Shown here: positions 6,616 through 29,749 of the stretch, piece after piece | Numbering within the stretch: the stretch's first letter is position 1 | Layout: each line of letters starts with the position of its first letter | DNA from: an uncultured bacterium | Lineage (GTDB): Bacteria; CAIJMQ01 | DNA length: 64,000 bases | Assembly: GCA_903821905.1 (NCBI GenBank) | Contig: CAIJMQ010000001.1 | Coordinates: 1 to 64,000, forward strand | Reading direction: 5' to 3' | Notes under the pieces: model-generated | Databases searched by the model: none | What the model was told of the DNA's origin: nothing | Seen by the model: only the letters and a program-made list of their open reading frames with translations | Translations under genes and position numbers: made by a program

Positions 6616-7389
6616 ATGAGCAATAAACACATTTTCGGGCCTGTTCCTTCAAGAAGATTAGGTTTTTCTTTAGGTGTGGATATTGTTCCTTCCAAAACAT
6701 GCACTCTTAACTGCATATATTGTCAGGTTGGCAGAACAACGTGCGAGACAATCGAAAGAAAAGAATATATAGCTCCTGACAAAATTCTTGCTGAATTAAA
6801 AGAGGTATTGAAGTCAGGTAAAAAGATTGACTATATTACTCTATCTGGTAATGGTGAGCCGACGCTGAATTCAAGTATAGAAAAGCTTATAAAAGGAATA
6901 AAAGAGATTTCTAATCTTCCGGTTGCTGTTATTACCAACGGAACACTACTTACTGATAAAAATGTGAGAGAAGAATTATTGTCGGCGGATTTGGTAATGC
7001 CTTCGCTTGATGCAGCAACGCAGGAAACTTTCAAAAAGATTGATAGACCTTATCCATCACTTAAGATAGAAAACATAATTGAAGGTATGGCAGAGTTCAG
7101 AAAAATCTATCATGGAAAATTTTGGCTTGAAATAATGCTTGTTAAAGGTATTAACAACAATCAAGATGAGCTTAATGCTTTAAAAACCGCCATAGAAAAA
7201 ATTAATCCCGATAGAATTCAGCTTAATACTCCTGTCCGTCCCACTTGTGAAAAAGGAGTGGAGATATTATCTTCAAAGAAACTTTTGGAAATAAAAGAAT
7301 TTTTTGGGAAAAAGTGCGAGATTATTCCGGAGCTTAACAAGAGAGAACACGAAGAACATATTAAACACATCAAATATGAGCATAGCTAA
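6616..7389 (+). CDS. Radical SAM protein, COG0731 (TYW1-like) family
   Basis: A 257-aa radical SAM enzyme. The [4Fe-4S]-binding CTLNCIYC (C-x3-C-x2-C) lies at residues 29-36. The N-terminal HIFGPVPSRRLGFSLGVD signature is characteristic of the COG0731 family, related to the archaeal/eukaryal wyosine tRNA enzyme TYW1. The SGNGEPTLN motif is the glycine-rich SAM contact. Bacterial members have no well-defined substrate, so the role is open. The start has no ribosome-binding site but sits 8 nt after a perfect -10, suggesting leaderless translation. Its end overlaps the next gene by 14 bp. Confidence 0.85.
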   Translation: MSNKHIFGPVPSRRLGFSLGVDIVPSKTCTLNCIYCQVGRTTCETIERKEYIAPDKILAELKEVLKSGKKIDYITLSGNGEPTLNSSIEKLIKGIKEISNLPVAVITNGTLLTDKNVREELLSADLVMPSLDAATQETFKKIDRPYPSLKIENIIEGMAEFRKIYHGKFWLEIMLVKGINNNQDELNALKTAIEKINPDRIQLNTPVRPTCEKGVEILSSKKLLEIKEFFGKKCEIIPELNKREHEEHIKHIKYEHS

Positions 7390-8044
7390 CAATTATCAGA
7401 AAACCCGAAAAGTAATTCCCGGTAATGTGACAATAATTTTAGCGGGGAAGGGGAGAACCAACAAAGAGATTGAAGAAGTTATAGATGCGGGTGCGGAGGA
7501 TTTGGGAGAAAACTATGTTCAGGAAGCAGAAAGAATGTATGAAGTTTTGGGCGAAAAGGCAGGAAAAGTGAAATGGCATATGATAGGGCATCTGCAGAAA
7601 AATAAAATCAACAAAGCACTCAAAATATTTGATGTTATCCAGACAATTGATTCTCAAGAAATAGCCGAAGCTTTAAATGAAAGAGCAGAAAAAATAGGGA
7701 AGACCGTTCCTGTTTATATCGAGGTAAACATCGGCGATGAAGAAGCAAAAAGCGGTGTAAAGGCGGACTACAGAGTTATAGAGAGTTTAGCTCGAGGGAT
7801 TTCACAACTCCAATCTTTACGTTTAGAAGGTCTTATGACAATGGAACCGCAAGTCGAAAATCCCGAAGATTCAAGACCATATTTCCAAAAAACAAAAGAT
7901 ATATTCGATAGAATTAAAGATCTTAACTTGCCTAACGTTGATATGAAATATCTTTCTATGGGTATATCGGGTTCATACAAAATAGCAATTGAAGAAGGAA
8001 GTAATATGGTGAGGTTGGGAACGGTTATATTTGGAGAGAGATAA
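7376..8044 (+). CDS. yggS: YggS/PLPBP-type pyridoxal phosphate homeostasis protein
   Basis: A single-domain alanine-racemase-like barrel that binds PLP and buffers cellular vitamin B6 and amino-acid pools; no catalytic turnover is known. The start at 7376 gives MSIANNYQKTRK and 222 aa, close to the family norm; the longer frame from 7304 would lie inside the previous gene. Visible motifs are ILAGKGR (probable PLP lysine, where the family usually has AVSKT), DLGENYVQEA, WHMIGHLQKNK, GLMTM and LSMGISGSYKIAI. It overlaps the radical-SAM gene by 14 bp, so the two are likely co-expressed. Confidence 0.92.
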   Translation: MSIANNYQKTRKVIPGNVTIILAGKGRTNKEIEEVIDAGAEDLGENYVQEAERMYEVLGEKAGKVKWHMIGHLQKNKINKALKIFDVIQTIDSQEIAEALNERAEKIGKTVPVYIEVNIGDEEAKSGVKADYRVIESLARGISQLQSLRLEGLMTMEPQVENPEDSRPYFQKTKDIFDRIKDLNLPNVDMKYLSMGISGSYKIAIEEGSNMVRLGTVIFGER

Positions 8045-8077
8045 TTAATAAAGTAAAAGAGGGAGGTTAAGTAATAT

Positions 8078-9652
8078 ATGGAAAAGCTATATATAATTAT
8101 ATTTGTTTTATTAATAGGTATGGTGTGGACAGGTTCAGCTCGCGCAAAAACAACGATTACTTCGGATAAAGATAACGTCAATCAACTCATTGTTCATGTA
8201 GATAAAGGTAAAGAAAAAATTGCGCCCGAAATCTACGGCCATTTTGCCGAACATTTGGGTCGCTGTGTATATGAAGGTTTCTGGGTTGGAGAGACTTCAG
8301 ATATTCCCAATGTAAGAGGTATCCGTAAAGATGTGGTCGATGCCCTCAAAAAAATTCAGGTACCGGTACTACGTTGGCCCGGCGGTTGTTTTGCAGATGA
8401 CTATCATTGGAAAGATGGAATAGGACCACGTGATGAGCGCAGCAAGAAGATTAACAACTGGTGGGGTAGTATGATAGATGCCAATCAATTCGGTACACAT
8501 GAATTTATGGACCTATGCGAGCAACTTGGCTGTGAAGCATATATCGCAGGTAATGTTGGTTCGGGGACCGTTGAAGAAATGCGGGACTGGGTTGAGTATA
8601 TGACTTCCGATAGTGGCAGCGATATGGCTAATCTGCGTCGTAAGAATGGCCGAGATAAACCCTGGAAGATTCCTTATTTTGGTATAGGCAATGAGAACTG
8701 GGGATGCGGCGGTAATATGACTCCTGAATACTATGCGGATATCTATAAACGTTTTCAAACTTATGTGCGCAACTATTCCGGCAATGAAATCGTGAAAGTG
8801 GCATGTGGCCCGAACGGTGCGGATTTGCACTGGATGGATATTGTTATGCAAAAAGCTGTCTGGCAGATGAATGCAATTACTGTGCACTATTATGTAAGAG
8901 GCAGCGGAGACTGGACGAATAAAGGAAGCGCTACGCAGTTTGGTGAAAAAGAATGGTTTGCACTTATGAAAAACACTCTGGGAATAGATGATGTTATTGC
9001 CAAAGACATTAAGATTATGGACAAGTATGATCCAAACAAACGGGTAGCTCTATTTGTAGATGAATGGGGTACCTGGTGGGATTCTGAACCGGGCGGGACA
9101 GCTCTGTATCAGCAGAATACCATGCGTGATGCTGTTTCAGCCGGTATTTTCCTGAATGTTTTCAATTCTCATTGTGATAGAGTTAAAATGACTAATATTG
9201 CCCAAATTAACAATGTGCTTCAGGCAATGATTTTGACCAAAGGCAAAGATATGATAGTTACTCCGACTTATCACGTGTTTGAAATGTTTAAAGTTCATCA
9301 GGGAGCTACATTACTGCCTACCGATATATCATGTCCTGCTTATAAATACGATAAAGAAAATGTGCCGTCGATGATAGTGTCTGCATCAAAAAATTCATCA
9401 GGAACAGTTCATATCTCGTTATGCAATCTCGATCCCAATAATGATGCTAAGTTGAATTGTAAGTTGGAAGGTCTGAAACCGAGCAAAGTTACAGGGCGAG
9501 TGTTGACTGCCGAAACTATGAACGCACACAACACTTTTGAAAATCCTGACACGATTAAGCCTACTACTCTGAAAGGTATAACTATTAAAGATAATATTAT
9601 TACTGTAACAATACCTTCCAAGTCGGTAGTTGTTTTAGCGGTTCAGCCATAA
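8078..9652 (+). CDS. Exported alpha-L-arabinofuranosidase, GH51
   Basis: Releases terminal arabinofuranose from arabinan, arabinoxylan or arabinogalactan side chains. Residues 1-24 are a signal peptide (ARA cleavage box), so the enzyme is exported; many GH51 enzymes are intracellular. The barrel shows the GH51 pattern GHFAEHLGRCVYEG, LRWPGGCFAD, acid/base Glu206 in GIGNENWGCGG and nucleophile Glu329 in VDEWGTWW, followed by the C-terminal beta-sandwich. The 524-aa length is normal. AGAGGGAGG lies before the start. It is followed by GH42 beta-galactosidase in the same direction, which suggests stepwise attack on arabinogalactan. Confidence 0.93.
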   Translation: MEKLYIIIFVLLIGMVWTGSARAKTTITSDKDNVNQLIVHVDKGKEKIAPEIYGHFAEHLGRCVYEGFWVGETSDIPNVRGIRKDVVDALKKIQVPVLRWPGGCFADDYHWKDGIGPRDERSKKINNWWGSMIDANQFGTHEFMDLCEQLGCEAYIAGNVGSGTVEEMRDWVEYMTSDSGSDMANLRRKNGRDKPWKIPYFGIGNENWGCGGNMTPEYYADIYKRFQTYVRNYSGNEIVKVACGPNGADLHWMDIVMQKAVWQMNAITVHYYVRGSGDWTNKGSATQFGEKEWFALMKNTLGIDDVIAKDIKIMDKYDPNKRVALFVDEWGTWWDSEPGGTALYQQNTMRDAVSAGIFLNVFNSHCDRVKMTNIAQINNVLQAMILTKGKDMIVTPTYHVFEMFKVHQGATLLPTDISCPAYKYDKENVPSMIVSASKNSSGTVHISLCNLDPNNDAKLNCKLEGLKPSKVTGRVLTAETMNAHNTFENPDTIKPTTLKGITIKDNIITVTIPSKSVVVLAVQP

Positions 9653-9708
9653 AGAAATATGATAAAACTTAAACTTAACAATAAAAAACAATTTCATAGG
9701 AGGAAGAT

Positions 9709-11781
9709 ATGATAAAAAAATATCCACCGATTAATCCTAGATTCCCGCATTTTCTTCACGGCGGTGATTATAATCCCGAACAGTGGCAGGATACGCCTAA
9801 AGTTTGGGATGAGGATATCCGTTTAATGAAGCTTTCGCATTGCAATACTATGTCAGTCGGAATATTTTCCTGGGTTAGTTTGGAACCGGAAGAAGGCAAA
9901 TTCACGTTTGGATGGCTTGATACTATTATGGATAAATTTTCTAAGAATGGGATTTATGCAGTTCTTGCAACTCCAAGTGGTGCCCGACCTGCCTGGATGT
10001 CTAAAAAATATCCTGAGGTGCTTAGGGTGAATTCAGATCGGGTAAGAATATTACACAGCGGTCGCCACAACCATTGTTTTACATCTCCTATTTACCGCGA
10101 AAAATGCAGAATCATAAATCAGAAACTTGCCGAAAGATACAAAGACCATCCTGCGCTTTTCGTCTGGCATATTTCAAACGAATATGGTGGTGATTGTCAC
10201 TGCGAGCTTTGTCAGGAAGCTTTCAGGAAATGGTTGAAGAATAAATACGGAACACTTGATAAACTCAACCATGCTTGGTGGACAAGATTCTGGAGCCATA
10301 CTTTTACCGATTGGTCTCAAATAGAATCTCCTGCTCCATATCCGCACGGTGAAAGTTCAGTTCATGGTATGAACCTTGATTGGAAACGTTTTGTGACATA
10401 TCAGACAGTAGATTTCTTCAAAAATGAAATTGTTCCTCTTAGAAAAATCACTCCTAAAATACCTGTGACGACAAACTTTATGGGAACATACCAGGGGTTA
10501 AATTATTGGAAGTTTGCAGATGAATTAGATGTTGTTGCTTGGGATAACTATCCCCAGTGGCATGGTTGGGAAGAAGACTGGATGCTTGGTTGTAAGGTGT
10601 CTTTTGTTCATGATATCAACCGCTGTATTAAAGGCGGTAAACCGTTTATGTTGATGGAAAGCACTCCGAGCATGCAAAACTGGGCTGATGTATGCAAACC
10701 CAAACGACCAGGCATGCATCTCTTATCTTCTATTCAGGCTGTTGCGCACGGTGCGGATACCGTCCAGTATTTCCAATGGCGCAAGAGTAGGGGGAGCTGT
10801 GAGAAATTTCACGGTGCAGTAGTTGACCACTGCGGACACGAGAATACACGTGTTTTTCACGATGTAACTGAAGTTGGTAAGACAATTGAGAAACTCGATG
10901 CAGTAATTGGAACTACAGTAAGACCTGAGGTAGCTCTTATTTTCGATTGGGAAAATAATTGGGCTATTGACGATACTCAAGGTCCACGCCGTTATAAGAA
11001 AGATTATCAGTCAACTTGCGAGAATCATTATCGTCAGTTCTGGATTAGAGGCATACCCGTAGATGTCATAAATATGGACTGTGATTTCTCTAAGTACAAA
11101 ATTGTAATTGCTCCTATGCTTTATATGGTTAGACAAGGCGTAGCAAAGCGTTTGGACAATTTTGTACAGAGGGGGGGAACATTAATTGCCACGTATTGGA
11201 CAGGCATAGTAGATGACAATGACCTTTGCTTCTTGGGAGGATTCCCCGGCCCGCTTAGAAAAGTGCTTGGTATATGGTCTGAAGAGATTGATGCTTTATA
11301 TGATAAGGACAGAAATTATGTTGTCCCTTTCAAAAATAACCCGCTTAAACTTTCAGGCAAATATGAAGCAAGAGAACTATGCGATTTAATCCACGCAGAA
11401 AAGGCAAAAGTTCTTGCTGAATATAAGCAGGATTTCTATGCAGGACGACCTGCGCTTACCGTTAATAAGTTTGGCAGAGGCGAAGCGTATTATATGGCTT
11501 CCCGCAACGATGAGAAGTTCCTGAATGATTTCTATCAAGCCATAATCAAAAAACTTAATATCAGAAGAGTTATAGATACCAAATTACCTCAAGGGGTTAC
11601 AGCGCAAGTCCGCACAGACGGTAAAAAAGAGTTCGTGTTTCTTATGAACTTCAAACAGGAAAAGCAGGAAGTACAGTTAGGCAAAACTTCATATAAGAAT
11701 CTATTGAATGGAAAAACAGTGAGTGGTAAATTGGTCCTTCCATCTTTTGGCATAGCAGTGCTAGAAAGAGCAGAGAGATAA
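9709..11781 (+). CDS. Beta-galactosidase, GH42
   Basis: Hydrolyses beta-galactosides, typically galacto-oligosaccharides from plant galactans. The 690 aa cover the TIM barrel (1-390), a trimerisation domain with a glutamine-amidotransferase fold (~395-610) and a small C-terminal beta domain. Acid/base Glu158 lies in HISNEYGG and nucleophile Glu317 in LMEST. Cys123, Cys163, Cys165 and Cys168 match the structural zinc site of this family. There is no signal peptide, so it works in the cytoplasm on imported products of the exported GH51 enzyme encoded just upstream. A TAGGAGGAAGAT ribosome-binding site precedes the start. Confidence 0.94.
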   Translation: MIKKYPPINPRFPHFLHGGDYNPEQWQDTPKVWDEDIRLMKLSHCNTMSVGIFSWVSLEPEEGKFTFGWLDTIMDKFSKNGIYAVLATPSGARPAWMSKKYPEVLRVNSDRVRILHSGRHNHCFTSPIYREKCRIINQKLAERYKDHPALFVWHISNEYGGDCHCELCQEAFRKWLKNKYGTLDKLNHAWWTRFWSHTFTDWSQIESPAPYPHGESSVHGMNLDWKRFVTYQTVDFFKNEIVPLRKITPKIPVTTNFMGTYQGLNYWKFADELDVVAWDNYPQWHGWEEDWMLGCKVSFVHDINRCIKGGKPFMLMESTPSMQNWADVCKPKRPGMHLLSSIQAVAHGADTVQYFQWRKSRGSCEKFHGAVVDHCGHENTRVFHDVTEVGKTIEKLDAVIGTTVRPEVALIFDWENNWAIDDTQGPRRYKKDYQSTCENHYRQFWIRGIPVDVINMDCDFSKYKIVIAPMLYMVRQGVAKRLDNFVQRGGTLIATYWTGIVDDNDLCFLGGFPGPLRKVLGIWSEEIDALYDKDRNYVVPFKNNPLKLSGKYEARELCDLIHAEKAKVLAEYKQDFYAGRPALTVNKFGRGEAYYMASRNDEKFLNDFYQAIIKKLNIRRVIDTKLPQGVTAQVRTDGKKEFVFLMNFKQEKQEVQLGKTSYKNLLNGKTVSGKLVLPSFGIAVLERAER

Positions 11782-12998: not shown

Positions 12999-13012
12999 TA
13001 TTCAGTCCCTCT

Positions 13013-13040
13013 TGAGATTTTGGCGCAGTATAGATATAAT
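13013..13040 (+). promoter_or_regulatory. Promoter of the hydrogenase/methylene-THF reductase operon
   Basis: -35 TTGAGA (13013-13018), 16-bp spacer, -10 TATAAT (13035-13040), about 70 nt before ATG 13110. All following genes to 21055 are spaced by less than 10 bp or overlap, so this could drive the full ~8-kb unit. Confidence 0.75.
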
Positions 13041-13109: not shown

Positions 13110-14156
13110 ATGCGGTATGTGAGTTTGCAGAAGGACAAGTTACCCCAGTTCGTCAATTCTTTGCAAAAAAAGTATAAAGTTGTTGCTCCCGTGAAGAAAG
13201 AAAATCTGTTTGTATTTGCTACGATAGAAGACCCCGAAGAAGTAGAACTTGATTATATGCCTACAATACTACCTCCCAAAAAATATTTCCTTCCGCAACA
13301 CGAAAAATTAGGAAGTTTTGTGAAAGATAATGTTGCGATGGCGGATACCAATATTGATGTTGAGCCAACTGTTTTGTTTGGCGCGCATACCTGTGATATT
13401 GAGGGTATAGAATGTCTTGATATTGTTTTCCACGATACGCCTGCAGACCCTTATTTCGGAAGAAGGAAAAAATCTATCATTATCATAGGTTATGAGTGCA
13501 TGAAACCGTGCGATGAATATTCTACGTGCGTTACTATGGATACGCTCAATCCCAGAGCCGGTTATGACATTATGATTACGGATATCGGCGATAAATATAT
13601 TCTATACATAAATTCACCCGAAGGTATGGGGATAATAGGGAAAAACCCGATTTTTGGGAAAGTTGAAAATGAACGTGATGTGAAGACGAAACTCTTGAAA
13701 CTCAGGGAAGATAAAGTGAAAAATTTTAAAGTTCAGATTGATGCTGATTATAAGGAACTTAATAAAATATTCGGCACTTCTTATAACAGTAAAACATGGC
13801 AAGATGTGGGGAAGAGATGTGTTTCCTGCGGCAATTGCACGGCTGTATGCCCTACGTGTTATTGCTTTGATATAAACGATGAAGTTAAGCTTGATATGAG
13901 TGGCGGGAAAAGGGAAAGAGTGTGGGATTCCTGCCAGCTTGATGAATTTGCAATGGTTACAGGCGGTGAGAATTTCCGTAAAGAACGTTCTTCAAGACAA
14001 CGGCACCGATATTACAGGAAATTTGATTATTCCGTAAAAAAATACAGCAAGTTTTTCTGTGTAGGATGTGGAAGATGTACCCGCACTTGTATGGCTGATA
14101 TTAGTTTGATTGAGACTGTAAATGAATTGGCAAAGGAGCATAAAAATGCAAAGTAA
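13110..14156 (+). CDS. hydB: Ni/Fe hydrogenase beta subunit (HydB-type, group 3b)
   Basis: An electron-transfer subunit of cytoplasmic NAD(P)-linked (sulf)hydrogenases. It carries two [4Fe-4S] clusters in the C-terminal third: CVSCGNCTAVCPTCYC near residue 234 and CVGCGRCTRTC near residue 318. The N-terminal part (VAPVKKENLFVFATIEDPEEVELDY) matches the family. It relays electrons between the small subunit and the flavoprotein gamma subunit. AAGGAG lies 8 nt upstream of the start. It is first in a four-gene hydrogenase set in the order beta, gamma, delta, alpha, the order known from Pyrococcus sulfhydrogenase. It overlaps the next gene by 11 bp. Confidence 0.92.
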   Translation: MRYVSLQKDKLPQFVNSLQKKYKVVAPVKKENLFVFATIEDPEEVELDYMPTILPPKKYFLPQHEKLGSFVKDNVAMADTNIDVEPTVLFGAHTCDIEGIECLDIVFHDTPADPYFGRRKKSIIIIGYECMKPCDEYSTCVTMDTLNPRAGYDIMITDIGDKYILYINSPEGMGIIGKNPIFGKVENERDVKTKLLKLREDKVKNFKVQIDADYKELNKIFGTSYNSKTWQDVGKRCVSCGNCTAVCPTCYCFDINDEVKLDMSGGKRERVWDSCQLDEFAMVTGGENFRKERSSRQRHRYYRKFDYSVKKYSKFFCVGCGRCTRTCMADISLIETVNELAKEHKNAK

Positions 14157-15009
14157 ACTATTGAAAAAAGAGATGACAATTCCTGCCGATTTTTTATATT
14201 CGCCGCGGGCTGCTACGATAGTTAAAACCAAACAAATGACGGCAAATGAGAAATTTTTTGAAATCAAATTTGATGACGGAGAACCCCTTGGGCATGAGCC
14301 GGGACAATTTATTCAACTTTCTATTTTCGGGATAGGTGAAGCTCCTGTTGGTATTTGTTCGTCTCCGACAAAAGAAGATAGAAGCACTTTTGAAGTTTGC
14401 GTGCGGAAAGTAGGGACATTTACCAATGCGTTACATAAACTTGATGTAGGCGATAAACTCGGCATCAGAGGTCCTTATGGAAGAGGGTTCCCGATTGATG
14501 AACTCAAAGGTAATGATGTTCTTATTGTTGCGGGAGGGCTTGGTATTGTTCCGCTTCGGTCTCTTATAAATTTTATTATTGATAGAAGAAGGGATTTCGG
14601 TAATGTAATGATACTACTTGGTTGTAAAGGTCCCAAAGACAGGCTTTTCACCGATGATATGAAAGAATGGGAACGCATGCTTAATATCAATTATGCATGT
14701 ACTGTTGATAGAGCTGACCCTGATTGGAAAGGAAACGTAGGTGTAATTACTACTCTTATGCCGGGTGTTCATATTGATAAAAACAGAACATATGCCGTTG
14801 TTGTCGGTCCGCCCATTATGTATAAATTTGTAATAGCTGAACTTCTCAAGAAAGGTCTGTCTGAAAACCAGATAATCCTTTCCTTGGAACGCCGGATGAA
14901 ATGCGGTCTCGGCAAATGCGGGCATTGCCAGATAAATAGTGTATATGTATGCAAAGATGGTCCAACATTTACCTATGCTGAATTAAAAGGATTGGGGGAG
15001 GCGTTATGA
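14146..15009 (+). CDS. hydG: Hydrogenase gamma subunit, FAD/NAD(P)-binding (HydG-type)
   Basis: The diaphorase subunit that exchanges electrons with NAD(P). The ferredoxin-reductase fold shows an FAD site (GQFIQLS, VRKVGTFTNAL), an NAD(P) site (VLIVAGGLGIVPLRSLI) and a C-terminal 2Fe-2S motif (MKCGLGKCGHCQI with a later VCKDGP). The start at 14146 is chosen for its AAGGAG box; the longer frame from 14122 begins well inside hydB. 287 aa is normal. The stop overlaps the next start in ATGA. Confidence 0.92.
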   Translation: MQSKLLKKEMTIPADFLYSPRAATIVKTKQMTANEKFFEIKFDDGEPLGHEPGQFIQLSIFGIGEAPVGICSSPTKEDRSTFEVCVRKVGTFTNALHKLDVGDKLGIRGPYGRGFPIDELKGNDVLIVAGGLGIVPLRSLINFIIDRRRDFGNVMILLGCKGPKDRLFTDDMKEWERMLNINYACTVDRADPDWKGNVGVITTLMPGVHIDKNRTYAVVVGPPIMYKFVIAELLKKGLSENQIILSLERRMKCGLGKCGHCQINSVYVCKDGPTFTYAELKGLGEAL

Positions 15010-15782
15010 GCCAGAGTAAAAACAAAAAAGTGCGCATTGCTTTATTTGATTTTGCCGATTGCGAAGGTTGCCAGCTCCAAGTTACTTATCTTAATGACCA
15101 GTTGGTTGGACTTTTGGAACACTGTGAAATAGTGAATTTTAGAGAGGCAATTTCAGAAAGAAGCGATGATTATGATATAGCCCTTGTTGAAGGTTCAATT
15201 ACAAGAAAACACGATGAAGAACGCGTCAAAAAAATACGCGAGAATGCAAAGATACTGATTGCTTATGGTTCATGTGCTTGTATAGGCGGAGTGAACGGTT
15301 TAAGGAAAAAATTCACTCAAGAAGAAGCAAAAGATATAGTTTATAAAGGCAGGGAATTTCCCATTGATGTAGGAGAACCAAGACCGGTTCACGAAGTCGT
15401 TAAAGTTGATTATTTTATATACGGTTGTCCTACTAATAATGAAGAAACAATAAAAGCACTGAAATCAATTCTTATCGGCAAAGGTTATACTCCGCCCAGA
15501 TATCCTGTTTGTGTCGAATGTAAACTAAAAGAAAACGTCTGCTTGTTTGAAAAAGGTCAGGTTTGTCTGGGACCGGTGACAAGGGGCGGTTGCGGCGCTT
15601 GGTGTACGAGTTATGGAAATACTTGTTACGGATGCAGAGGACTTCTTGATAAACCCGCGCAAGAGGGACAGATGGATATATTAAAGAAAAACGGATATAC
15701 ACTGGAAGAACTAAAGCAAAAATTCGAAACTTATAATTTATGCAGAATGATGGGAGAGCAAAATGCAACAGAAAAATCTTAA
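15006..15782 (+). CDS. hydD: Hydrogenase small (delta) subunit
   Basis: The [NiFe]-hydrogenase small subunit with the NADH:quinone oxidoreductase 20-kDa fold, which takes electrons from the NiFe centre. The proximal-cluster ligands are visible in DCEGCQL (residues 17-23), GSCACIGG and YGCPTNNEE. The C-terminal cysteine-rich stretch (CVECKLKENVC, GPVTRGGCGAWC, NTCYGC) holds the medial and distal clusters. 258 aa is typical for group 3b. It is translationally coupled to both neighbours: 4-bp overlap before, 20-bp overlap after. Confidence 0.93.
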   Translation: MSQSKNKKVRIALFDFADCEGCQLQVTYLNDQLVGLLEHCEIVNFREAISERSDDYDIALVEGSITRKHDEERVKKIRENAKILIAYGSCACIGGVNGLRKKFTQEEAKDIVYKGREFPIDVGEPRPVHEVVKVDYFIYGCPTNNEETIKALKSILIGKGYTPPRYPVCVECKLKENVCLFEKGQVCLGPVTRGGCGAWCTSYGNTCYGCRGLLDKPAQEGQMDILKKNGYTLEELKQKFETYNLCRMMGEQNATEKS

Positions 15783-17097
15783 TATAAATGTTGATTACTT
15801 GACCCGGGTTGAAGGACACGGGGATATCGTAATCAATGTTAAGGAAGGTAAGCTCGAGAAATGTGAGCTTCAGGTAATAGAAGCTCCCCGGTTTTTCGAG
15901 GCTATGCTGAGAGGCAGGTCTATATTTGAAGCACAGCATATTACTTCCAGAATTTGCGGAATATGTTCAACGGGACACAGCCTTGCTTCGATAAAAGCTT
16001 CTGAAGATGCAGCCGGTTTTACACCTACGCAACAAACTGTTCTACTTCGGAAACTGCTCCTTCATTATGAAACTCTTGACAGCCATCTTTTACACGCGGC
16101 TTTTCTTGTGGCGCCGGATGCTTTGGGTGTGCCCAGTGTTCTTCCGCTTTTAACTACTCATAAAGCTCTTGTTCTCATGGTATTGGGTATGAAGAAAGAT
16201 TATAGCGACCTTTGCGATATTCTTGCGGGAAGACATACTCATCCCATTACAGTATGTCCGCGCGGATTTACTAAGCTTCCCACGAAAAAAGAACTCCAGA
16301 AAACAAAAGATATTCTTACCCAGCATGTAGCAAAACTTAACAAGATTGTAGACCTCTTTACGACATTAAAATTGCCAAACTTTGAGAGAGCGACAGAATA
16401 CGTGGCATTGACCCATCCCGAAGAATATGCATTTTTAGACGGTAATATTACTACCACGGATATGAGGGATTCCGTTATTCATCCCCACGATTATAAAGAA
16501 GTTATTCATGAGTTTCATGTTGCTCACAGCACATCAAAACATTCTAAAAATAAAAGAGATTCATATATGGTAGGTGCTTTGGCAAGGATTAATATCAACT
16601 TTAATAAACTAAACAAGCAGGCAAAATCCGTTGCAAGTGCGCTGAATTTTAAAACTCCTTCGTATAATCCATATATGAATACGATTGCCCAGGTTATTGA
16701 ATCGGCTCATTGTTTATACGATGCAATAGCAATCGTTGACCATTTCTTGAAGATAGGCATTAACTATGATGAAGTTGTCAGTTCCTGGCCGAAAGTTGAC
16801 GAATGGCCTACATTTAAATGCAAAGCAAGAAAAGGCGTGGGTGCTGTTGAAGTCCCGCGCGGGATTCTTATACACGAATATACCATCAATGAGCGCGGTA
16901 TAATAAAAAATGCCAATTGCTGTATTCCGACTAACCAGAACCTTGCCAATATCGACCTTGATATGAAGAAACTCGTTCCCGAGGTATTGGATAAATCAAA
17001 AGAAGAGATTACACTACTTGCCGAAATGTTAGTTAGAGCATATGACCCGTGCATTTCATGTTCGTGCCATATGCTTGATGTGAAATTTATCGAGTAA
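15763..17097 (+). CDS. hydA: Ni/Fe hydrogenase large (alpha) subunit, group 3b-like
   Basis: The catalytic subunit. Nickel and iron are held by Cys65 and Cys68 of RICGICSTGH and Cys430 and Cys433 of DPCISCSCH. After insertion of NiFe(CN)2CO the C-terminal peptide after His436 (MLDVKFIE, only 8 residues) is removed by the protease encoded next. The set of four subunits and the lack of a twin-arginine signal place it in the cytoplasmic, bidirectional group 3b class. Cys435 next to the terminal His is an extra cysteine not required by the motif. GGGAGAG precedes the ATG inside hydD. Confidence 0.94.
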   Translation: MQQKNLNINVDYLTRVEGHGDIVINVKEGKLEKCELQVIEAPRFFEAMLRGRSIFEAQHITSRICGICSTGHSLASIKASEDAAGFTPTQQTVLLRKLLLHYETLDSHLLHAAFLVAPDALGVPSVLPLLTTHKALVLMVLGMKKDYSDLCDILAGRHTHPITVCPRGFTKLPTKKELQKTKDILTQHVAKLNKIVDLFTTLKLPNFERATEYVALTHPEEYAFLDGNITTTDMRDSVIHPHDYKEVIHEFHVAHSTSKHSKNKRDSYMVGALARININFNKLNKQAKSVASALNFKTPSYNPYMNTIAQVIESAHCLYDAIAIVDHFLKIGINYDEVVSSWPKVDEWPTFKCKARKGVGAVEVPRGILIHEYTINERGIIKNANCCIPTNQNLANIDLDMKKLVPEVLDKSKEEITLLAEMLVRAYDPCISCSCHMLDVKFIE

Positions 17098-17106: not shown

Positions 17107-17568
17107 ATGGAGAAAACACTCGTCATAGGTGTAGGTTCTGTATTAAGAAGTGACGATGGTATAGGAATAAGAGTAGTAGAAGAGCTTCAGAAGGAAAAAT
17201 TCCCCTCCAAGGTTAAGTTCATAAGTGGCGATATCTCTGGTTTAGAGCTTATAAAATATTTCTCCGACTTTGCGCGGGTTATTATTATTGATGCTGCGGA
17301 TATAAAAGAAAAACCCGGCACGATTAAGTCATTCAAGGGTTCCCAGCTAAAGAAAAGCGATTTCTCCGATATTGTTTCAACTCATGGCATGAATCTTATT
17401 GAGACATTAACACTTGCGGAAAAGTTGGATATCTCACCTGAAATAGTTATTGTAGGCATCCAGCCGAAAGATACTTCATTCAAATTAGAACTGACACTTG
17501 AAATAGAAGAGAAAATACCTTATATAGTAAATGCAGTTAAAAAGATAATTAATAGAGATAAAAAATGA
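17107..17568 (+). CDS. Hydrogenase maturation protease (HyaD/HycI family)
   Basis: Cleaves the C-terminal tail of the large subunit once nickel is in place. 153 aa, the normal size, with GVGSVLRSDDGIG at the N-terminus (nickel-sensing Asp/Glu region), then IIIDAADI (second acidic ligand) and THG (His ligand). It is positioned right after its substrate gene with a 9-bp gap, and its stop overlaps the next start in ATGA. Confidence 0.92.
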   Translation: MEKTLVIGVGSVLRSDDGIGIRVVEELQKEKFPSKVKFISGDISGLELIKYFSDFARVIIIDAADIKEKPGTIKSFKGSQLKKSDFSDIVSTHGMNLIETLTLAEKLDISPEIVIVGIQPKDTSFKLELTLEIEEKIPYIVNAVKKIINRDKK

Positions 17569-19562
17569 TTGATTATACGAAATACCGGCTGAAATCAAAG
17601 GAAGAACTCGCGGAGATTCTCTCTGGAATTTCCAGTATTTTTGTTGTCTTGTGCCTGAAATGTTACAAAGAATTTCAGGTTGTAGAAGAGCCGGAATGTC
17701 CTGATTTCCAGGAATATCTAAAAGAGAAAGGGATAAAATTTGCAGGATGTATTGACCAAGATTTTTTATGCAATAACTATCTCACAGATAAAAAATTGGC
17801 TGAAGTTAAGCTCAATGATGCGGAAGCGGTCGGCGTTATATCCTGCGGTTTAGGAATTCAGAATATTGCTAAATCATTGGAAGGTAAAAGAGTTATAGCT
17901 CTTGCTGATTCAATTCCCCATGGCGGAAATGCAACAAGTATTGTAGGCTATCATGGAATAGCACTTGAGAGCGAGAAATGTTCTGCCTGCGGAGAGTGCT
18001 ATTTAAATATTACAGGCGGGATTTGTCCTATAGTAGATTGTGCCAAGAGTCTTTTAAATGGTCCCTGCGGCGGAGCTAAAAACGGCAAATGCGAAGTAAA
18101 TTCCAACCTTGACTGTGCATGGGAAAAAATATACGAACGGCTTAAAAACCAAAACAGAGAATTCATAAGTAAAAAGATAGAAATAAGGGATTATGGCAAA
18201 TTCAAATTTGATAATAAAAAGAAGCTTTCTCTTTCTAATCAGGCACGAAGAAAAGAAAGTTTTTACGGCGGTGTATATCCCTTAGATAAGAAAGAAGATA
18301 CCCAAAATCTTGCCATTGCAGTTTTTCCTGAACCCCAACAAGTAACTATATTCCTCTCTCAACATACAGGTTCTCCGGCTGAAGCTTTAGTAAAAGTCGG
18401 CGATACGGTAAAAATTGGGCAGAAAATAGCAAAAAGCACAGGACTGATATCTTCCTCGATTCATTCGAGTGTCAACGGTAAAGTTGTTTCTTTGAAAAAA
18501 AGAATTCATCCTTCCATATTAAAACCTCTCCCTGCGATAGTTATTGAAAACGATGGTTTGGATGAGTTTGATTCTTCAGTAAAACCTATTTTAAATTGGG
18601 AAAACGAGTCAAAAGAGTCATTGACACAGATATTGCAAGATAAAGGGATTGTCGGTTTAGGCGGTGCTATGTTTCCCACTCACGTTAAACTCTCTGCGCC
18701 GAAACCTGTTGATACTTTGATTATCAATGGCTGTGAATGTGAACCGTATCTGAGTGCAGATAACAGAGTGATGGTCGAGTATCCCGAACAAATAATGAAG
18801 GGTATTAGTGTTGCGAAAAAACTTCTCGGTGTGGAAAATGTTATTGTCGTAGTTGATGAGAATAAACCTGAAGCGATTGAGAAACTTAAGAGTTTACCAA
18901 ACATCAAAGTTGAAGTTCTGAAAACCAAGTATCCTCAAGGCGCAGAAAAGATATTAGTAAAGAAGTTGCTTAATAGGGAAGTTCCTGAAGCGGGTTTACC
19001 TTTTGATGTCGGGGTTGTAGTTTCCAATGTGAGCACAATTTTTGCAATCTATCAGGCAATCTTTGAAGGACTGCCTCTGATTCAAAGAGTGGTTACGGTT
19101 TCCGGTGACAGTATAGTGCGAAGCGGTAATTTTTTGATGAAAATAGGCACTTCCCTAAACGATATCGTCAAGTTCTGCTTTAAAGGAAATAAAGAAAAAA
19201 TTTTTGAAGAATATCATATTAAAATGGGTGGTCCGATGATGGGTATAGACCAGATTAGTCTTGATTCAAGTGTTATCAAAGGTTCAACGGGATTCACTTT
19301 CCTGAAGAAAAACCCAGCTGAGCTTTCGGAAGAGCGCGCCTGTATAAAATGCGGTCGTTGTGTTGAAGTATGTCCTGTGGAACTTGAACCTCTGTATTAT
19401 GCCTATTACGGACAGAAGAAAATGTGGAATGAAACTATCAAGTATAATGTTGCCAATTGTATAGAATGCGGCGCATGCGAATATGTCTGTTCATCAAAAA
19501 TAAGTCTTTTGAGTTTAATAAAAAAGGCAAAGAAAAATGCTCATAACAAAGTTAAAAAATAA
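17565..19562 (+). CDS. MetV-RnfC fusion protein, electron input module for methylene-THF reductase
   Basis: Residues 1-200 are a MetV-type domain (methylene-THF reductase C-terminal/zinc-cysteine family) ending in CSACGECYLNITGGICP and SLLNGPCGGAKNGKCEV with all conserved cysteines. Residues ~230-665 are RnfC-like: a barrel-sandwich start (GGVYPLDKKEDTQNL), the glycine-rich GIVGLGGAMFPTHVK flavin/NADH region, NGCECEPY, and two C-terminal [4Fe-4S] motifs (Cys593/596/599/603 and Cys632/635/638/642). In Acetobacterium MetV and RnfC2 are separate subunits of an NADH-dependent MetF enzyme; here they are one chain. It would feed NADH electrons to MetF. It overlaps both neighbours. There is no Rnf membrane complex nearby, so a role in Rnf itself is unlikely. 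Confidence 0.88.
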   Translation: MIDYTKYRLKSKEELAEILSGISSIFVVLCLKCYKEFQVVEEPECPDFQEYLKEKGIKFAGCIDQDFLCNNYLTDKKLAEVKLNDAEAVGVISCGLGIQNIAKSLEGKRVIALADSIPHGGNATSIVGYHGIALESEKCSACGECYLNITGGICPIVDCAKSLLNGPCGGAKNGKCEVNSNLDCAWEKIYERLKNQNREFISKKIEIRDYGKFKFDNKKKLSLSNQARRKESFYGGVYPLDKKEDTQNLAIAVFPEPQQVTIFLSQHTGSPAEALVKVGDTVKIGQKIAKSTGLISSSIHSSVNGKVVSLKKRIHPSILKPLPAIVIENDGLDEFDSSVKPILNWENESKESLTQILQDKGIVGLGGAMFPTHVKLSAPKPVDTLIINGCECEPYLSADNRVMVEYPEQIMKGISVAKKLLGVENVIVVVDENKPEAIEKLKSLPNIKVEVLKTKYPQGAEKILVKKLLNREVPEAGLPFDVGVVVSNVSTIFAIYQAIFEGLPLIQRVVTVSGDSIVRSGNFLMKIGTSLNDIVKFCFKGNKEKIFEEYHIKMGGPMMGIDQISLDSSVIKGSTGFTFLKKNPAELSEERACIKCGRCVEVCPVELEPLYYAYYGQKKMWNETIKYNVANCIECGACEYVCSSKISLLSLIKKAKKNAHNKVKK

Positions 19563-20182: not shown

Positions 20183-21055
20183 ATGGATTTTGCTAAAAAA
20201 ATACAAAGCGGACAATTTGTCATTACTTCGGAAATCGGTCCTCCTAAGGGTGTGGAAATAGAAGGAGCTTTAAAAGAAGCAGAAACTCTAAAAGGTAAGG
20301 TGGACGCTTTCAACGTTACAGATTTACAGAGTTCTGTAATGAAATTGGGCTCTCTTGCTACATGCCGTCTGCTTGTTGAAAGAGGGTTAGAACCGATATT
20401 CCAGATTACTTGCCGCGACAGAAACAGGTTGGCTTTACAATCGGATTTACTTTCTGCTTATGTGCTGGGAATAAGAAATGTTCTTGTTCTTACCGGTGAC
20501 CATCCTGTTTTAGGCGACCATCCACAAGCAAAACCCGTATTTGACCTTGATTCTATAAGTTTACTGAAAGCGGCAACAGGTCTTATGGAAGGTAAAGATA
20601 TGGTCGGCAATGACCTTGTTGGTAAACCGGAATTTTTGCTCGGTGCAGTTGTCAATCCGAGTGCAGACCCTTTAGAACCTCAGATTATCAAGATGGAGAA
20701 AAAGATCCAAGCAGGTGCAAAATTTTTCCAGACTCAAGCAATATATGATGTAAAGAGTTTTGAAAATTTCATGAACATAGTCAAAAAATTCAATGTTCCC
20801 ATTCTTGGCGGAATAGTTCTTTTGAAATCCGCCGGTATGGCAAAATTCATGAACGAGAAAGTTGCAGGTATAAATGTTCCCGACAAATATATCGCGATGA
20901 TGGCAGAGGCAAGTAAAGAAGATAGACCTAAAGTCAGTGTTCAAATAGCTGCAGAGCTGATAAAAGGCATGAAAGGTCTCTGTCAGGGAATACACATTAT
21001 GCCTCTTGGCTGGGAGAAACATGTCCCGTCTGTTCTACAGGAATCTGGATTCTAG
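20183..21055 (+). CDS. metF: MetF, methylenetetrahydrofolate reductase
   Basis: Reduces 5,10-methylene-THF to 5-methyl-THF with FAD, a step of the methyl branch of the Wood-Ljungdahl pathway and of methionine supply. The 290-aa TIM barrel shows the catalytic Glu in TSEIGPPKG, the FAD contacts ITCRDRNR and VLTGDHP, and FQTQAIYD. The bacterial MetF fold lacks its own NADH-oxidising partner, which fits with the MetV and MetV-RnfC proteins encoded directly upstream. Last gene of the tight operon; 42 bp separate it from hypF. Confidence 0.94.
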   Translation: MDFAKKIQSGQFVITSEIGPPKGVEIEGALKEAETLKGKVDAFNVTDLQSSVMKLGSLATCRLLVERGLEPIFQITCRDRNRLALQSDLLSAYVLGIRNVLVLTGDHPVLGDHPQAKPVFDLDSISLLKAATGLMEGKDMVGNDLVGKPEFLLGAVVNPSADPLEPQIIKMEKKIQAGAKFFQTQAIYDVKSFENFMNIVKKFNVPILGGIVLLKSAGMAKFMNEKVAGINVPDKYIAMMAEASKEDRPKVSVQIAAELIKGMKGLCQGIHIMPLGWEKHVPSVLQESGF

Positions 21056-21097: not shown

Positions 21098-23413
21098 ATG
21101 AAGAAAATCTCTCGGTTTAGAATAGAAATCAAAGGCAAGGTTCAGGGGGTAGGTTTTAGGCCCACTGTTTACAGATACGCTGTTCAAAGAAAGCTAATGG
21201 GGTGGGTGAGTAATAGCTCTACAGGTGTAATTATAGAGATTCAAGGGAAGAAAAATGATGTGGAGAGTTTTATTGCCATGTTAAAGAAATTTCCACCTTC
21301 CCGTGCAGAAATAACAGCTTTTCAAATCACCGAAATCAAACCCAAAAGAGAAACATCCTTCAAAGTTCTTTCAAGTATTATCGGAAAAGAGATGAAAACA
21401 AGAATATCTCCCGATATTGCCGTCTGTAAAGATTGTTTGAAAGAACTTTTTGATAAAAAAGATAGGCGCTATCTTTACCCTTTCACAAACTGCACTAACT
21501 GCGGACCGCGTTTTACCATCATAAAAAACATCCCTTACGACAGACCTAATACCACAATGAAAAGGTTCAAGATGTGTAAGTCCTGCCAGAGTGAATATGA
21601 CAATCCTTCTAACCGCAGATTCCATGCTCAACCAAATGCTTGCAGCGTATGTGGTCCTAAGGTGTTACTGATACAAAAAACCAAAGTTAAAAGTGCAGGG
21701 ACAGAAGCTATAAAGAAAACTACTGAACTACTCAAAGAGGGGAGGATTGTTGCGATAAAAGGATTGGGAGGATTTCATCTTGCCTGTGATGCTCTGAATG
21801 ATGAAACAGTTAAGACATTACGGAGCAGAAAATACAGAGAAGATAAACCATTTGCTCTTATGGCGAAAGATTTAAAAACAATAAAACAATATTGTGAGGT
21901 TTCACGGGAAGAAGAAAAACTTCTACTCTCCTGGAAATCTCCGATTGTTCTCCTAAAGAAAAAAGCGAATTCATCTATTTCAAAACATATAGCACCAAAT
22001 AACAAATATCTCGGCTTTATGCTTCCGTATACTCCTTTACACCATTTATTATTTTCTAAACTCACGGTTCTTGTTATGACAAGTGGTAATATAAGCGATG
22101 AACCGATTGCGTACGATAACGATGAAGCGATGAAACGGCTTAAGAATATAGCTGACTATTTTCTTATTCACAACCGCGATATTTATATCCGCTCTGATGA
22201 TTCCGTTACAAGAATTTTCCCCCCTCCCAAAAAGGAATTTATTCTCCGTCGTTCCAAAGGTTATATTCCTGACCCAATCCGCAATCCGAATTCCGCAATC
22301 CGCAATGTAATCCTTGCTTGCGGTGGACATTCCAAAAACACTTTTGCCATAGCTAAAGGCGAAGAAGTAATCCTAAGCCACCACATAGGAGATTTGGAAA
22401 ATGTAGAGACATATAATTCCTTTGTAAACGGTATAGAACATTTCAAGAAATTACTTGAAATTAAACCCAAAATTATTGCTCACGATTTACATCCTGAATA
22501 TTTCTCTACTCAATATGCCAAGCAATTTGCTTCTCGCCACTCATCATTTACCACTGTTGCTGTTCAGCATCACCATGCACATATCGCTTCAGTTATGGCT
22601 GATAATCTATTGAATAATCGTAGAGTAATAGGTGTTGCTTTTGACGGAACAGGGCTTGGTTCTGACGGGAATTTATGGGGAGGTGAATTCCTGATTGCTG
22701 ATTATAAGGATTTCAAACGGTTCGCACATCTTAAATATATTCCTCTTCCCGGAGGAGAAAAGGCAATAAAAGAACCGTGGAGAATAGCATTTAGTTATCT
22801 TTATTCCATATTCGGTGATGGACTCTGGAGGCTTGACATAAACTTTGTCAAAAAACTTGATAAGAAAAAGAGTAAAGTTTTAAAGGGAATGCTCGACAAA
22901 GGTATCAACACACCTCTCACTTCAAGCGTCGGTAGATTGTTTGATGCAGTCGCTTCCTTAATCGGTATAAGAGATACGGTAAATTATGAGGGACAAGCGG
23001 CGATAGAATTGGAGATGGCAATTGAGGAAAGACAAAAGGTAAAAGGCAAAACGCAAAATTACGGATATACAATACAAAAAGAAAACAATATCTACATTAT
23101 TAATCCGGATGGAATCATCAAAGGAATAGTGGAGGATTTAAAGCGTGGGTTATCCAAAGAAATTATTTCTCTAAAGTTCCACAACACAATTGTTAAGCTG
23201 ATTGTTAAGATGGCTAAGAAACTCAGAGAGGATACGGGATTAAAAGAAGTTGCTCTTGGTGGGGGTGTGTTCCAGAATATGTTTATTTTAACTGGTGCTT
23301 ACAACGGACTTAAAAAAGTAGGATTTAGAGTGTATATCCACAAAAAAGTCCCGACAAATGACGGCGGTCTTTCATTAGGACAGGCGGTGATTGCAGCGCA
23401 TCAGGATGATTGA
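21098..23413 (+). CDS. hypF: HypF, carbamoyltransferase for NiFe-hydrogenase cyanide ligands
   Basis: Activates carbamoyl phosphate and passes the carbamoyl group to HypE. Domains in order: acylphosphatase-like (1-90, FRIEIKGKVQGVGFRP), two zinc fingers (CKDC...CTNC; CKSC...CSVC, about 107-187), YrdC-like adenylation (~200-380) and the Kae1/TobZ-like carbamoyltransferase part (VQHHHAHIASVMADN, AFDGTGLGSDGNLWGGE, ALGGGVFQN). 771 aa is normal. An asparagine-rich linker near residues 393-403 looks like an in-frame insertion of short repeats. Its stop is 4 bp from the convergent gene's stop, with no terminator between them. The remaining hyp genes begin 4.1 kb further on. Confidence 0.95.
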   Translation: MKKISRFRIEIKGKVQGVGFRPTVYRYAVQRKLMGWVSNSSTGVIIEIQGKKNDVESFIAMLKKFPPSRAEITAFQITEIKPKRETSFKVLSSIIGKEMKTRISPDIAVCKDCLKELFDKKDRRYLYPFTNCTNCGPRFTIIKNIPYDRPNTTMKRFKMCKSCQSEYDNPSNRRFHAQPNACSVCGPKVLLIQKTKVKSAGTEAIKKTTELLKEGRIVAIKGLGGFHLACDALNDETVKTLRSRKYREDKPFALMAKDLKTIKQYCEVSREEEKLLLSWKSPIVLLKKKANSSISKHIAPNNKYLGFMLPYTPLHHLLFSKLTVLVMTSGNISDEPIAYDNDEAMKRLKNIADYFLIHNRDIYIRSDDSVTRIFPPPKKEFILRRSKGYIPDPIRNPNSAIRNVILACGGHSKNTFAIAKGEEVILSHHIGDLENVETYNSFVNGIEHFKKLLEIKPKIIAHDLHPEYFSTQYAKQFASRHSSFTTVAVQHHHAHIASVMADNLLNNRRVIGVAFDGTGLGSDGNLWGGEFLIADYKDFKRFAHLKYIPLPGGEKAIKEPWRIAFSYLYSIFGDGLWRLDINFVKKLDKKKSKVLKGMLDKGINTPLTSSVGRLFDAVASLIGIRDTVNYEGQAAIELEMAIEERQKVKGKTQNYGYTIQKENNIYIINPDGIIKGIVEDLKRGLSKEIISLKFHNTIVKLIVKMAKKLREDTGLKEVALGGGVFQNMFILTGAYNGLKKVGFRVYIHKKVPTNDGGLSLGQAVIAAHQDD
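22276..22306 (+). repeat. Short direct repeat inside hypF
   Basis: The 10-mer AATCCGCAAT occurs at 22276-22285 and again at 22297-22306, with ATTCCGCAATCC-type partial units between. It encodes RNPNSAIRN in frame between the adenylation and carbamoyltransferase parts of HypF. Confidence 0.6.
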
Positions 23414-27567: not shown

Positions 27568-27780
27568 ATGTGTTTAGCGATACCAATGAAGGTGGTAAAA
27601 ATAGAGGGCCCTAGTGGAATTGTTGAGCTTGGAGGAGTGAAGAGGAATATTAATCTTGAACTCCTTGATGGTGTTAGAGTTGGGGAATATGTAATAGTCC
27701 ACGCAGGTTTTGCTATACAGAAGATAGATGATAAAGAAGCAGAAGAGACGATTGAGATTTTAAAAGAAATAGCTAAATGA
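27568..27780 (+). CDS. hypC: HypC, hydrogenase assembly chaperone
   Basis: 70 aa beginning MCLAIPMKV, with the essential Cys2 that carries the Fe(CN)2CO unit together with HypD. The conserved VGEYVIVHAGFAI segment is present. No ribosome-binding site is visible; TAAGAT at 27553-27558 lies 9 nt from the ATG, so translation may be leaderless. The stop overlaps hypD by 4 bp. Confidence 0.95.
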   Translation: MCLAIPMKVVKIEGPSGIVELGGVKRNINLELLDGVRVGEYVIVHAGFAIQKIDDKEAEETIEILKEIAK

Positions 27781-28871
27781 AATACATTGACGAGTTTAGA
27801 AATCCGGAACTGACGAAGAAGCTTATTGCGAAGATAAGCGGGATGGTTTCGGATTATAAGAAAGATATAAAACTAATGGAGGTTTGCGGAACGCATACGG
27901 TAGCTATTTCACGTGCAGGGTTAAGAAAACTTTTTCCGCCAAACCTTAAACTGCTTTCGGGACCGGGGTGTCCTGTATGTGTAACGCCCAATAATTATCT
28001 TGACAGGGCGATTGCTTACTGCCGAAAAAACGATGTTATTGTGATTACTTTTGGCGATATGATGAAAGTTCCCGGCTCAACTTCTTCTTTGGAGAAGGAA
28101 AAGAGTAGGGGAGCAGATATTCGGGTTATTTATTCGCCCATTGATGCTTTGAAGATTGCGAATGATAATCCGAAGAAGAAAATAATATTTCTCGGAGTAG
28201 GGTTTGAAACGACTTCTCCAACTATTGCTGCAACTATCAAAACTGCCGAAGCAGGGAATATTAAAAACTTCCTTGTTCAGTCAGGGCATAAAGTTATCCC
28301 GCCGGCAATGGAAACACTTCTTGCAGATAAAGAAGTAAAAGTGGATGGCTTTATATGCCCCGGTCACGTAAGCACGATTATTGGCTCTATTCCTTATGAG
28401 TTCATACCTAAAAAATATAATATTCCCTGTGTTATTGTGGGGTTCGAGCCGCTTGATGTAGTTGAGGGTGTCTACATGCTTGTTAAGCAGATTGTTGAGG
28501 GAGAAAAAGCAAGTGTCCAGGTTCAATACACCCGTTCGGTGAAAAGAGAAGGAAATCCCAAAGCTGTTGTGCTTATGGGAGAAGTGTTTGAACGAGAAAA
28601 TTCCAACTGGCGGGGTTTAGGGATGATTTCCCAAAGCGGATTGAAGATAAGAAAAGAGTTCTCGGCTTTTGATGCTGTGAAGAATATAGAAGTTAAGGTA
28701 GAACCTACAAAAGAAAATAGACAGTGTATATGCGGTGAGGTTTTAAGGGGAGTAAAGAGCCCGCTGCAATGTAAACTCTTCGGGAAAATGTGCACTCCAG
28801 AAAATCCTATAGGTGCGTGTATGGTTTCTTCGGAAGGTACTTGTGCAGCATATTATAAGTATGGGGAGTAA
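27777..28871 (+). CDS. hypD: HypD, iron-sulfur scaffold for Fe(CN)2CO assembly
   Basis: 364 aa with the family motifs MEVCGTHT (Cys for iron ligation), GPGCPVC, FGDMMKVPG, GVGFETTSPT and FICPGHVSTIIG, plus the C-terminal [4Fe-4S] cysteines (CICGEVLRG, CKLFGKMC, CMVSSEGTC). It reduces carbamoyl-derived thiocyanate on HypE to cyanide and passes it to iron with HypC. Overlaps hypC by 4 bp in ATGA. Confidence 0.96.
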   Translation: MKYIDEFRNPELTKKLIAKISGMVSDYKKDIKLMEVCGTHTVAISRAGLRKLFPPNLKLLSGPGCPVCVTPNNYLDRAIAYCRKNDVIVITFGDMMKVPGSTSSLEKEKSRGADIRVIYSPIDALKIANDNPKKKIIFLGVGFETTSPTIAATIKTAEAGNIKNFLVQSGHKVIPPAMETLLADKEVKVDGFICPGHVSTIIGSIPYEFIPKKYNIPCVIVGFEPLDVVEGVYMLVKQIVEGEKASVQVQYTRSVKREGNPKAVVLMGEVFERENSNWRGLGMISQSGLKIRKEFSAFDAVKNIEVKVEPTKENRQCICGEVLRGVKSPLQCKLFGKMCTPENPIGACMVSSEGTCAAYYKYGE

Positions 28872-28967
28872 AGTCACAGTTCTTCTTTGACTTCTTTCTT
28901 TATATCTTATATATTTAGCTCTCAACAACTGAAATTAAAGGTAACATACAAACAAAAGGAGATGGTT

Positions 28968-29669
28968 ATGTTAAAACGAGTTTTTGCAGTAGCTTTAGTA
29001 GTAGGTATAGTTTCGTGCGGGATGGTATTTGCTCAAGATAAGGGGAAAGGGTTGAATACCGATTCCGAAAAATTGAGTTACACATTAGGAATGGATATCG
29101 GGAAATTTTTAAAAGATGTGCCCAGAGATATCGATTTCGAGATTTTCATCCAAGGTATTAAGGATAGTTTTAACGGAGATACGACTATTCTTACAGAGGA
29201 AGAGGCAACACAAATAAAACAGGAGTTTATTAAAGAAATACAGGCGGAAAATATGAAAAAGATGGAAGAAATAGCTGCAAAAAATAAAAAGGACGGTGAA
29301 ACATTTCTTGCTGAAAACAAGAAGAAAGCAGGAGTTAAAACTACAAAAAGTGGTCTACAGTATGTAATATTGAAAGAAGGAAATGGTCCGACTCCTAAGA
29401 TAGATGATAAAGTCAAAGTGCACTACCGTGGCACTCTAATTGACGGAACAGAGTTTGATAGTTCTTATGCACGCGGTGAACCGGTTACATTCCAATTGAA
29501 TAGTGTAATTACCGGTTGGACTGAAGGATTACAGCTTATGAAAGTAGGAGGGAAATATAAATTGTTCGTTCCTTCGGAGCTTGGATATGGCGAACGTGGT
29601 GCTGGTACTCAAATCGGCCCGGATACTGTGCTAATATTTGAAGTAGAATTGTTAGGAATCGAGAAATAA
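28968..29669 (+). CDS. Exported FKBP-type peptidyl-prolyl isomerase (Mip/FkpA-like)
   Basis: A 233-aa folding catalyst with a signal peptide (residues 1-24; VFA-QD cleavage, though IVSC could also act as a lipobox), an N-terminal helical dimerisation region (about 30-125, lysine/glutamate-rich) and a C-terminal FKBP domain (VKVHYRGTLIDGTEFDSSY...FVPSELGYGERG). It acts in the periplasm or at the envelope. The start at 28968 is set by AAAGGAG 8 nt upstream. It lies between hypD and hypB, but it is not the cytoplasmic nickel-binding SlyD: it has no His-rich tail and it is exported. Confidence 0.9.
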   Translation: MLKRVFAVALVVGIVSCGMVFAQDKGKGLNTDSEKLSYTLGMDIGKFLKDVPRDIDFEIFIQGIKDSFNGDTTILTEEEATQIKQEFIKEIQAENMKKMEEIAAKNKKDGETFLAENKKKAGVKTTKSGLQYVILKEGNGPTPKIDDKVKVHYRGTLIDGTEFDSSYARGEPVTFQLNSVITGWTEGLQLMKVGGKYKLFVPSELGYGERGAGTQIGPDTVLIFEVELLGIEK

Positions 29670-29681
29670 GAAAATAATTAA

Positions 29682-29734
29682 AACAAGGGACGGTTCTATT
29701 TTAAAACAATAGCAAAATAGAACCGTCCCTTGTT
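29682..29734. repeat. Perfect 21-bp inverted repeat (MITE-like palindrome)
   Basis: Left arm 29682-29702 and right arm 29714-29734 are exact reverse complements, with an 11-nt loop (29703-29713). The arms contain GGGACGGTTCT. It lies between the FKBP gene and hypB. A weak T-run (CCTTTTT) follows on the plus strand, so it may also stop transcription after FKBP. The long perfect arms with no coding content fit a small mobile palindromic repeat. Confidence 0.7.
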
Positions 29735-29749
29735 ATCCTTTTTAACCTT

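Follow-up and report, generated by a model that had tools for sequence, protein, structure and literature searches.

A predicted RnfC2 subunit with an N-terminal MetV domain, encoded between a [NiFe] hydrogenase and the metV and metF genes of a methylenetetrahydrofolate reductase

The locus

The window, meaning the whole 64,000-nt stretch of DNA that was analysed, comes from a 1.3 Mb MAG that is 84% complete (G000) and whose closest relatives are recorded as MAGs labelled Candidatus Omnitrophota and Candidatus Ratteibacteria (L037, L038). Nine genes on the forward strand, joined by overlaps or by gaps of at most 42 nt, form the region of interest. The first four are assigned by Pfam and NCBIfam to a group 3b-like [NiFe] hydrogenase and encode a HydB-like Fe-S subunit (13110..14156), a HydG-like FAD/NAD(P)-binding subunit (14122..15009), a HydD-like small subunit (15006..15782) and a HydA-like large subunit (15763..17097). 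A hydrogenase maturation protease of the HycI/HyaD family follows (17107..17568), and its stop codon overlaps the start codon of rnfC2 (ATGA). The end of rnfC2 (17565..19562) overlaps by 26 nt with metV, which encodes a separate MetV subunit (PF12225; 19537..20181). The series is completed by metF, encoding the catalytic subunit of methylene-THF reductase (PF02219 in Pfam; 20183..21055), and by hypF, encoding the hydrogenase maturation carbamoyltransferase (Pfam and NCBIfam; 21098..23413). A sigma-70-like promoter match of 11/12 lies 5' of the nine genes (13012..13040, forward strand), but it is a consensus match only, and the total number of such matches is no higher than in shuffled sequences. 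More maturation genes are located at 27777-31781, namely hypD, a hypB-like gene, hypA and an AIR-synthase-like gene that is a hypE candidate, with a gene for an FKBP-type isomerase interrupting them.

The rnfC2 reading frame is uninterrupted from its ATG and encodes 665 aa, of which approximately residues 1-215 form a MetV domain (17565..18209) and residues 232-661 an RnfC domain (18258..19547). Pfam identifies PF12225 at aa 124-205 (5.8e-29), RnfC_N at aa 232-331 (2.7e-29), the Nuo51-type FMN/NADH domain Complex1_51K at aa 358-497 (3.4e-46) and a 4Fe-4S dicluster domain at aa 592-646. The NCBIfam model TIGR01945 (rnfC) spans aa 232-661 with 479 bits against a cut-off of 246 bits. Twelve cysteines of the MetV domain (30, 33, 69, 94, 139, 142, 145, 154, 159, 168, 176 and 184) are invariant in fused, fusion-adjoining and unlinked MetVs, and all eight cysteines of the two RnfC [4Fe-4S] motifs (aa 593-603 and 632-642) are invariant across 37 fusions. 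The domain models and the cysteine alignments thus bear out the original prediction of a MetV domain with all its cysteines joined to a complete RnfC domain with two [4Fe-4S] motifs.

The same prediction had named a frameshift or an assembly join, by which two genes are made to look like one, as the finding that would undo it. There is virtually no chance of such an artefact, because three sister genomes within the family (77-81% identity to the window protein) carry the fusion intact, as do further phyla and isolates. Outside the class, a MAG labelled Aerophobetes (L040) carries it at 59% identity.

Distribution and phylogeny of the fusion

Scanning 84,980 species genomes yields 123 related stretches, of which the best 80, ranked by score, were analysed. 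The original prediction had proposed surveying proteins with PF12225 ahead of RnfC for their taxonomy and gene neighbourhood, and the survey finds that each of the 80 loci, isolates included, encodes the fused MetV-RnfC in one ORF; since the list is ranked by score, it is uninformative on how often RnfC and MetV stay unfused. The fusion reaches at least 95% of full length in 79 loci and is cut by the contig end in the other. A metV gene follows in all except L049 and L062, where the contig stops in or just past rnfC2. In nearly all loci with a continuing contig, metV overlaps or directly adjoins rnfC2 and is followed by metF, as in the window; in L039, no metF is detected after metV. The matches listed for a plasmid collection are partial RnfC matches only, each with a query coverage below 80%.

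A tree of MetV domains was built from 28 fused domains, 28 fusion-adjoining MetVs and six unlinked MetVs, with A. woodii RnfC2 not in the tree. All 28 fused domains form one clade (support 100/99) that holds the window protein together with those of Blautia schinkii and B. wexlerae. The fusion-adjoining MetVs form a second group (87/97), and the six unlinked MetVs fall outside. The simplest reading of this topology would be one old duplication and fusion followed by inheritance or transfer, and the survey results fit an RnfC2 that arose only once. The protein is spread across Omnitrophota/Ratteibacteria-type, Aerophobetes, Elusimicrobia, Desantisbacteria, Firestonebacteria, Dehalococcoidia-labelled and Bacillota genomes. 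The high-scoring fusions (L052-L116) are mostly from gut Lachnospiraceae, Oscillospiraceae and other Bacillota, in which type III methylenetetrahydrofolate reductase (MTHFR) is widespread. A literature search for Ratteibacteria hydrogenases or for RnfC2 in Elusimicrobia gave nothing useful.

Identity and electron path of the enzyme

The protein encoded at 17565-19562 is very probably the RnfC2 subunit of a type III (3S) NADH-dependent MTHFR, RnfC2-MetV-MetF. The genes rnfC2, metV and metF are adjacent, and RnfC2 has the ~220-aa N-terminal MetV-like extension given in the published definition (PMC3315566). The RnfC domain keeps the flavin/NADH region and both [4Fe-4S] motifs at the level of sequence and fold, and the fused clade described above groups the window protein with B. 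schinkii and B. wexlerae, which are listed among type III organisms (PMC8760232). Gene order and Pfam assignments agree with the original prediction in placing a second MetV and MetF after the fusion and in reading the enzyme as an NADH-linked MTHFR.

The fusion is not unprecedented. The original prediction took MetV and RnfC2 to be separate subunits in Acetobacterium and knew of no characterised enzyme with the two joined; this contrast was mistaken, because the literature already describes A. woodii RnfC2 (Awo_c09290) as a fusion with a 220-aa N-terminal MetV-like extension, present besides a separate MetV (PMC3315566, PMC8760232, PMC8515935). The A. woodii enzyme has moreover been purified as RnfC2-MetV-MetF with 1:1:1 stoichiometry, 2 FMN and about 24 Fe (PMC8760232). 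By sequence comparison, the window RnfC2 is orthologous to that of Blautia and, going by published description, to that of A. woodii.

Among solved structures searched by sequence, A. woodii RnfC (PDB 9eri_C) is the closest to the RnfC part, at 359 bits, and no MetV structure is found. It is also the best match to the predicted fold of the RnfC half (E 3.5e-51, TMt 0.85, 40% identity), and the MetV half of the model is of lower confidence, low in places. By analogy with the A. woodii enzyme, electrons from NADH would enter at the FMN of the RnfC domain and travel through the two RnfC [4Fe-4S] clusters to those of both MetV modules, the fused domain and the separate subunit. These clusters would then deliver electrons to the MetF flavin, where methylene-THF would be reduced to methyl-THF. 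NADH is the presumed donor of the window enzyme, a choice between NADH and NADPH not being readable from sequence. The fusion may fix the order of electron transfer, as had been proposed from the sequence, but there are two MetV modules and the sequence is silent on which of them contacts MetF.

According to a hypothesis of Poehlein 2012, given in PMC3315566 and PMC8760232, RnfC2 would instead take the place of RnfC on the membrane Rnf complex and thereby link ion pumping to the MTHFR reaction. In favour are the complete RnfC domain of the window protein, whose predicted fold matches A. woodii RnfC at 40% identity, and the presence of RnfD/E in the sister genomes G001-G003. Neither RnfD/E nor a second RnfC is found in the window's own genome (84% complete), however, and the sister genomes have separate RnfC proteins of their own. 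Docking on Rnf is thus very improbable for the window enzyme, and possible in the sister genomes having RnfD/E.

Relation to the hydrogenase

Hydrogenase genes also accompany MetV in related genomes. In G003 (L038), both the hydrogenase-protease-rnfC2-metV-metF order and the hydrogenase itself are as in the window. A GxxExxY-type-like ORF, recognised by eye, lies between metV and metF of G003 (L034:861-1295) and breaks the tight spacing. In G002 (L037), where the window has the 3b-like enzyme, rnfC2-metV-metF is directly preceded by an unrelated [NiFe] hydrogenase of group 4 type, which comes with subunits resembling Mrp antiporters, with HydB/HydG-like NAD(P) proteins and with a protease (G002:C10:118600-134700; L032, L145, L037). 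A third type of hydrogenase is encoded in G004 and G005, which belong to a different family within the class; its protease gene overlaps a metV that stands alone, metF being located elsewhere, and this lone MetV may carry electrons for the adjoining hydrogenase. The corresponding segments (L126:9431-12853 and L127:4368-7790) contain genes for cytosolic-looking small and large hydrogenase subunits, the protease, the lone MetV, hypF and a HypD-like gene. Among the best 80 loci, several of which have contigs that are short upstream, linkage to relatives of the window or G002 hydrogenases is seen only in L037 and L038. The hydrogenase-MTHFR gene neighbourhood is therefore unusual and restricted to one family, and it is this neighbourhood, unlike the fusion itself, that is new here.

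The co-operonic hydrogenase is probably coupled to MTHFR through electron exchange with a common NAD(P)H pool. A closer association can also be envisaged, in which hydrogenase and MTHFR form a single H2:methylene-THF oxidoreductase unit or tight metabolon, beyond the sharing of NAD(P)H, such that methylene-THF would be reduced at the expense of H2, or H2 released on oxidation of methyl-THF. The compact run of nine same-strand genes and the preserved order in G003 speak for such a unit, as do the unrelated Mrp-linked hydrogenase at the equivalent place in G002, the lone MetV directly after yet another hydrogenase and protease in G004 and G005, and the reduction of methylene-THF with H2 by membranes of S. 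ovata, which has an Hdr-type MTHFR (PMC9430772). Yet the linkage is confined to two of the 80 loci, both from the window's own family, and the differing hydrogenase types argue against one conserved interface. Furthermore, hydrogenase and MTHFR each have an NAD(P)H flavin subunit, so that a shared soluble carrier suffices and a direct unit, which is unlikely, is not needed. It is likewise doubtful that the locus represents a lineage-specific, dedicated H2/methylene-THF module that lies outside the Wood-Ljungdahl pathway and has been rebuilt at one locus with unrelated hydrogenases. That MetV genes are repeatedly linked to different hydrogenases within one class offers a testable starting point for work on H2 and C1 metabolism.

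Metabolic role

The predicted product of the MTHFR is methyl-THF, and the genome content suggests its use. CdhC/AcsB is absent from the four family genomes G000-G003; absences in G000 alone are weak evidence because this MAG is 84% complete, but G001 (96%) and G002 (92%) are also without acetyl-CoA synthase. CdhC/AcsB is found in G005. No Prismane/CODH (CooS) match is present in G000, G001 or G003, and G002 has one of about 440 aa and unassigned type. A complete Wood-Ljungdahl acetogen is thus rejected, there being no AcsB/CdhC in the family and no CODH match in G000. The NADH-dependent 'acetogenic' MTHFR can accordingly occur in genomes without detectable acetyl-CoA synthase.

The window's genome does contain formate-THF ligase (FTHFS) and a B12-binding protein. 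Genes for homocysteine S-methyltransferase and a pterin-binding protein lie next to each other on G000:C38; ABC transporter genes, one of them for a periplasmic binding protein, come after them, and no MetH activation domain is found in this genome (84% complete). A RACo-like corrinoid reactivation protein is encoded at 1739-3352 of the window, and RACo_C_ter corresponds to DUF4445. G002 has a relative of this protein (L145:443-2122) on the contig with its MTHFR cluster. These genes match the components of a split corrinoid methionine synthase whose reactivation is of the DUF4445/RACo type, a split enzyme with DUF4445/RamA-like reactivation having been described (PMC5764234). Because of this match, methionine supply is the likeliest purpose: there is a reasonably good chance that the MTHFR provides methyl-THF, at the expense of NADH, for methionine formation by the split corrinoid methionine synthase. 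Elsewhere in the window (4676-11781 and 59294-62055) are genes for GH5 cellulase-like, arabinofuranosidase-like, GH42 beta-galactosidase, GH28 and GlcNAc 2-epimerase proteins, which are consistent with a polysaccharide- or sugar-fermenting life.

Comparison with known systems

The MetVF core is shared with the Hdr-type (type IV) MTHFR of Sporomusa and Moorella, but the window has RnfC2 instead of HdrCBA-MvhD; type IV is rejected, as the metVF genes have hydrogenase genes and hypF for neighbours rather than hdrCBA-mvhD. Type II (MetVF only) is rejected as well, for it has no NADH-oxidising partner gene and here rnfC2 overlaps metV. The RnfC of the A. woodii Rnf complex (9eri_C) has in common with the window protein the whole RnfC domain, the FMN/NADH region and the two [4Fe-4S] motifs, but it has no MetV domain and is encoded in an rnf operon. 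Assignment of the window protein to an Rnf complex is rejected, since no rnfDGEAB genes adjoin it and PF03116 is not found in G000 (84% complete).

The relatives aligned are those of Blautia and Alkalibaculum, A. woodii RnfC2 being compared by published description alone. As described, A. woodii RnfC2-MetV-MetF (Awo_c09290-09310) has the same gene order, N-terminal MetV domain on RnfC2, separate MetV and MetF. It differs in that its cluster includes fhs1, fchA and folD, whereas the window trio is flanked by the [NiFe] hydrogenase, protease and hypF genes, and in that CODH/ACS is not found on the side of the window organism. The B. schinkii and B. wexlerae clusters (L100, L075, L064) have the full-length fusion at 45-47% identity, metV and metF downstream and membership of the common fused clade, but a tblastn search of the flanks compared gave no relative of the window or G002 hydrogenase. 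The hydrogenase itself most resembles the group 3b sulfhydrogenases (HydBGDA/ShyBCDA), with the full HydB-HydG-HydD-HydA set of four subunits in identical order and 185-260 bits to the Hyd and Shy models. Its subunits fall far under the NCBIfam equivalog cut-offs of characterised members (e.g. 246 versus 880 bits), so that it is called 3b-like, and it differs from the sulfhydrogenases further in being joined to MTHFR genes.
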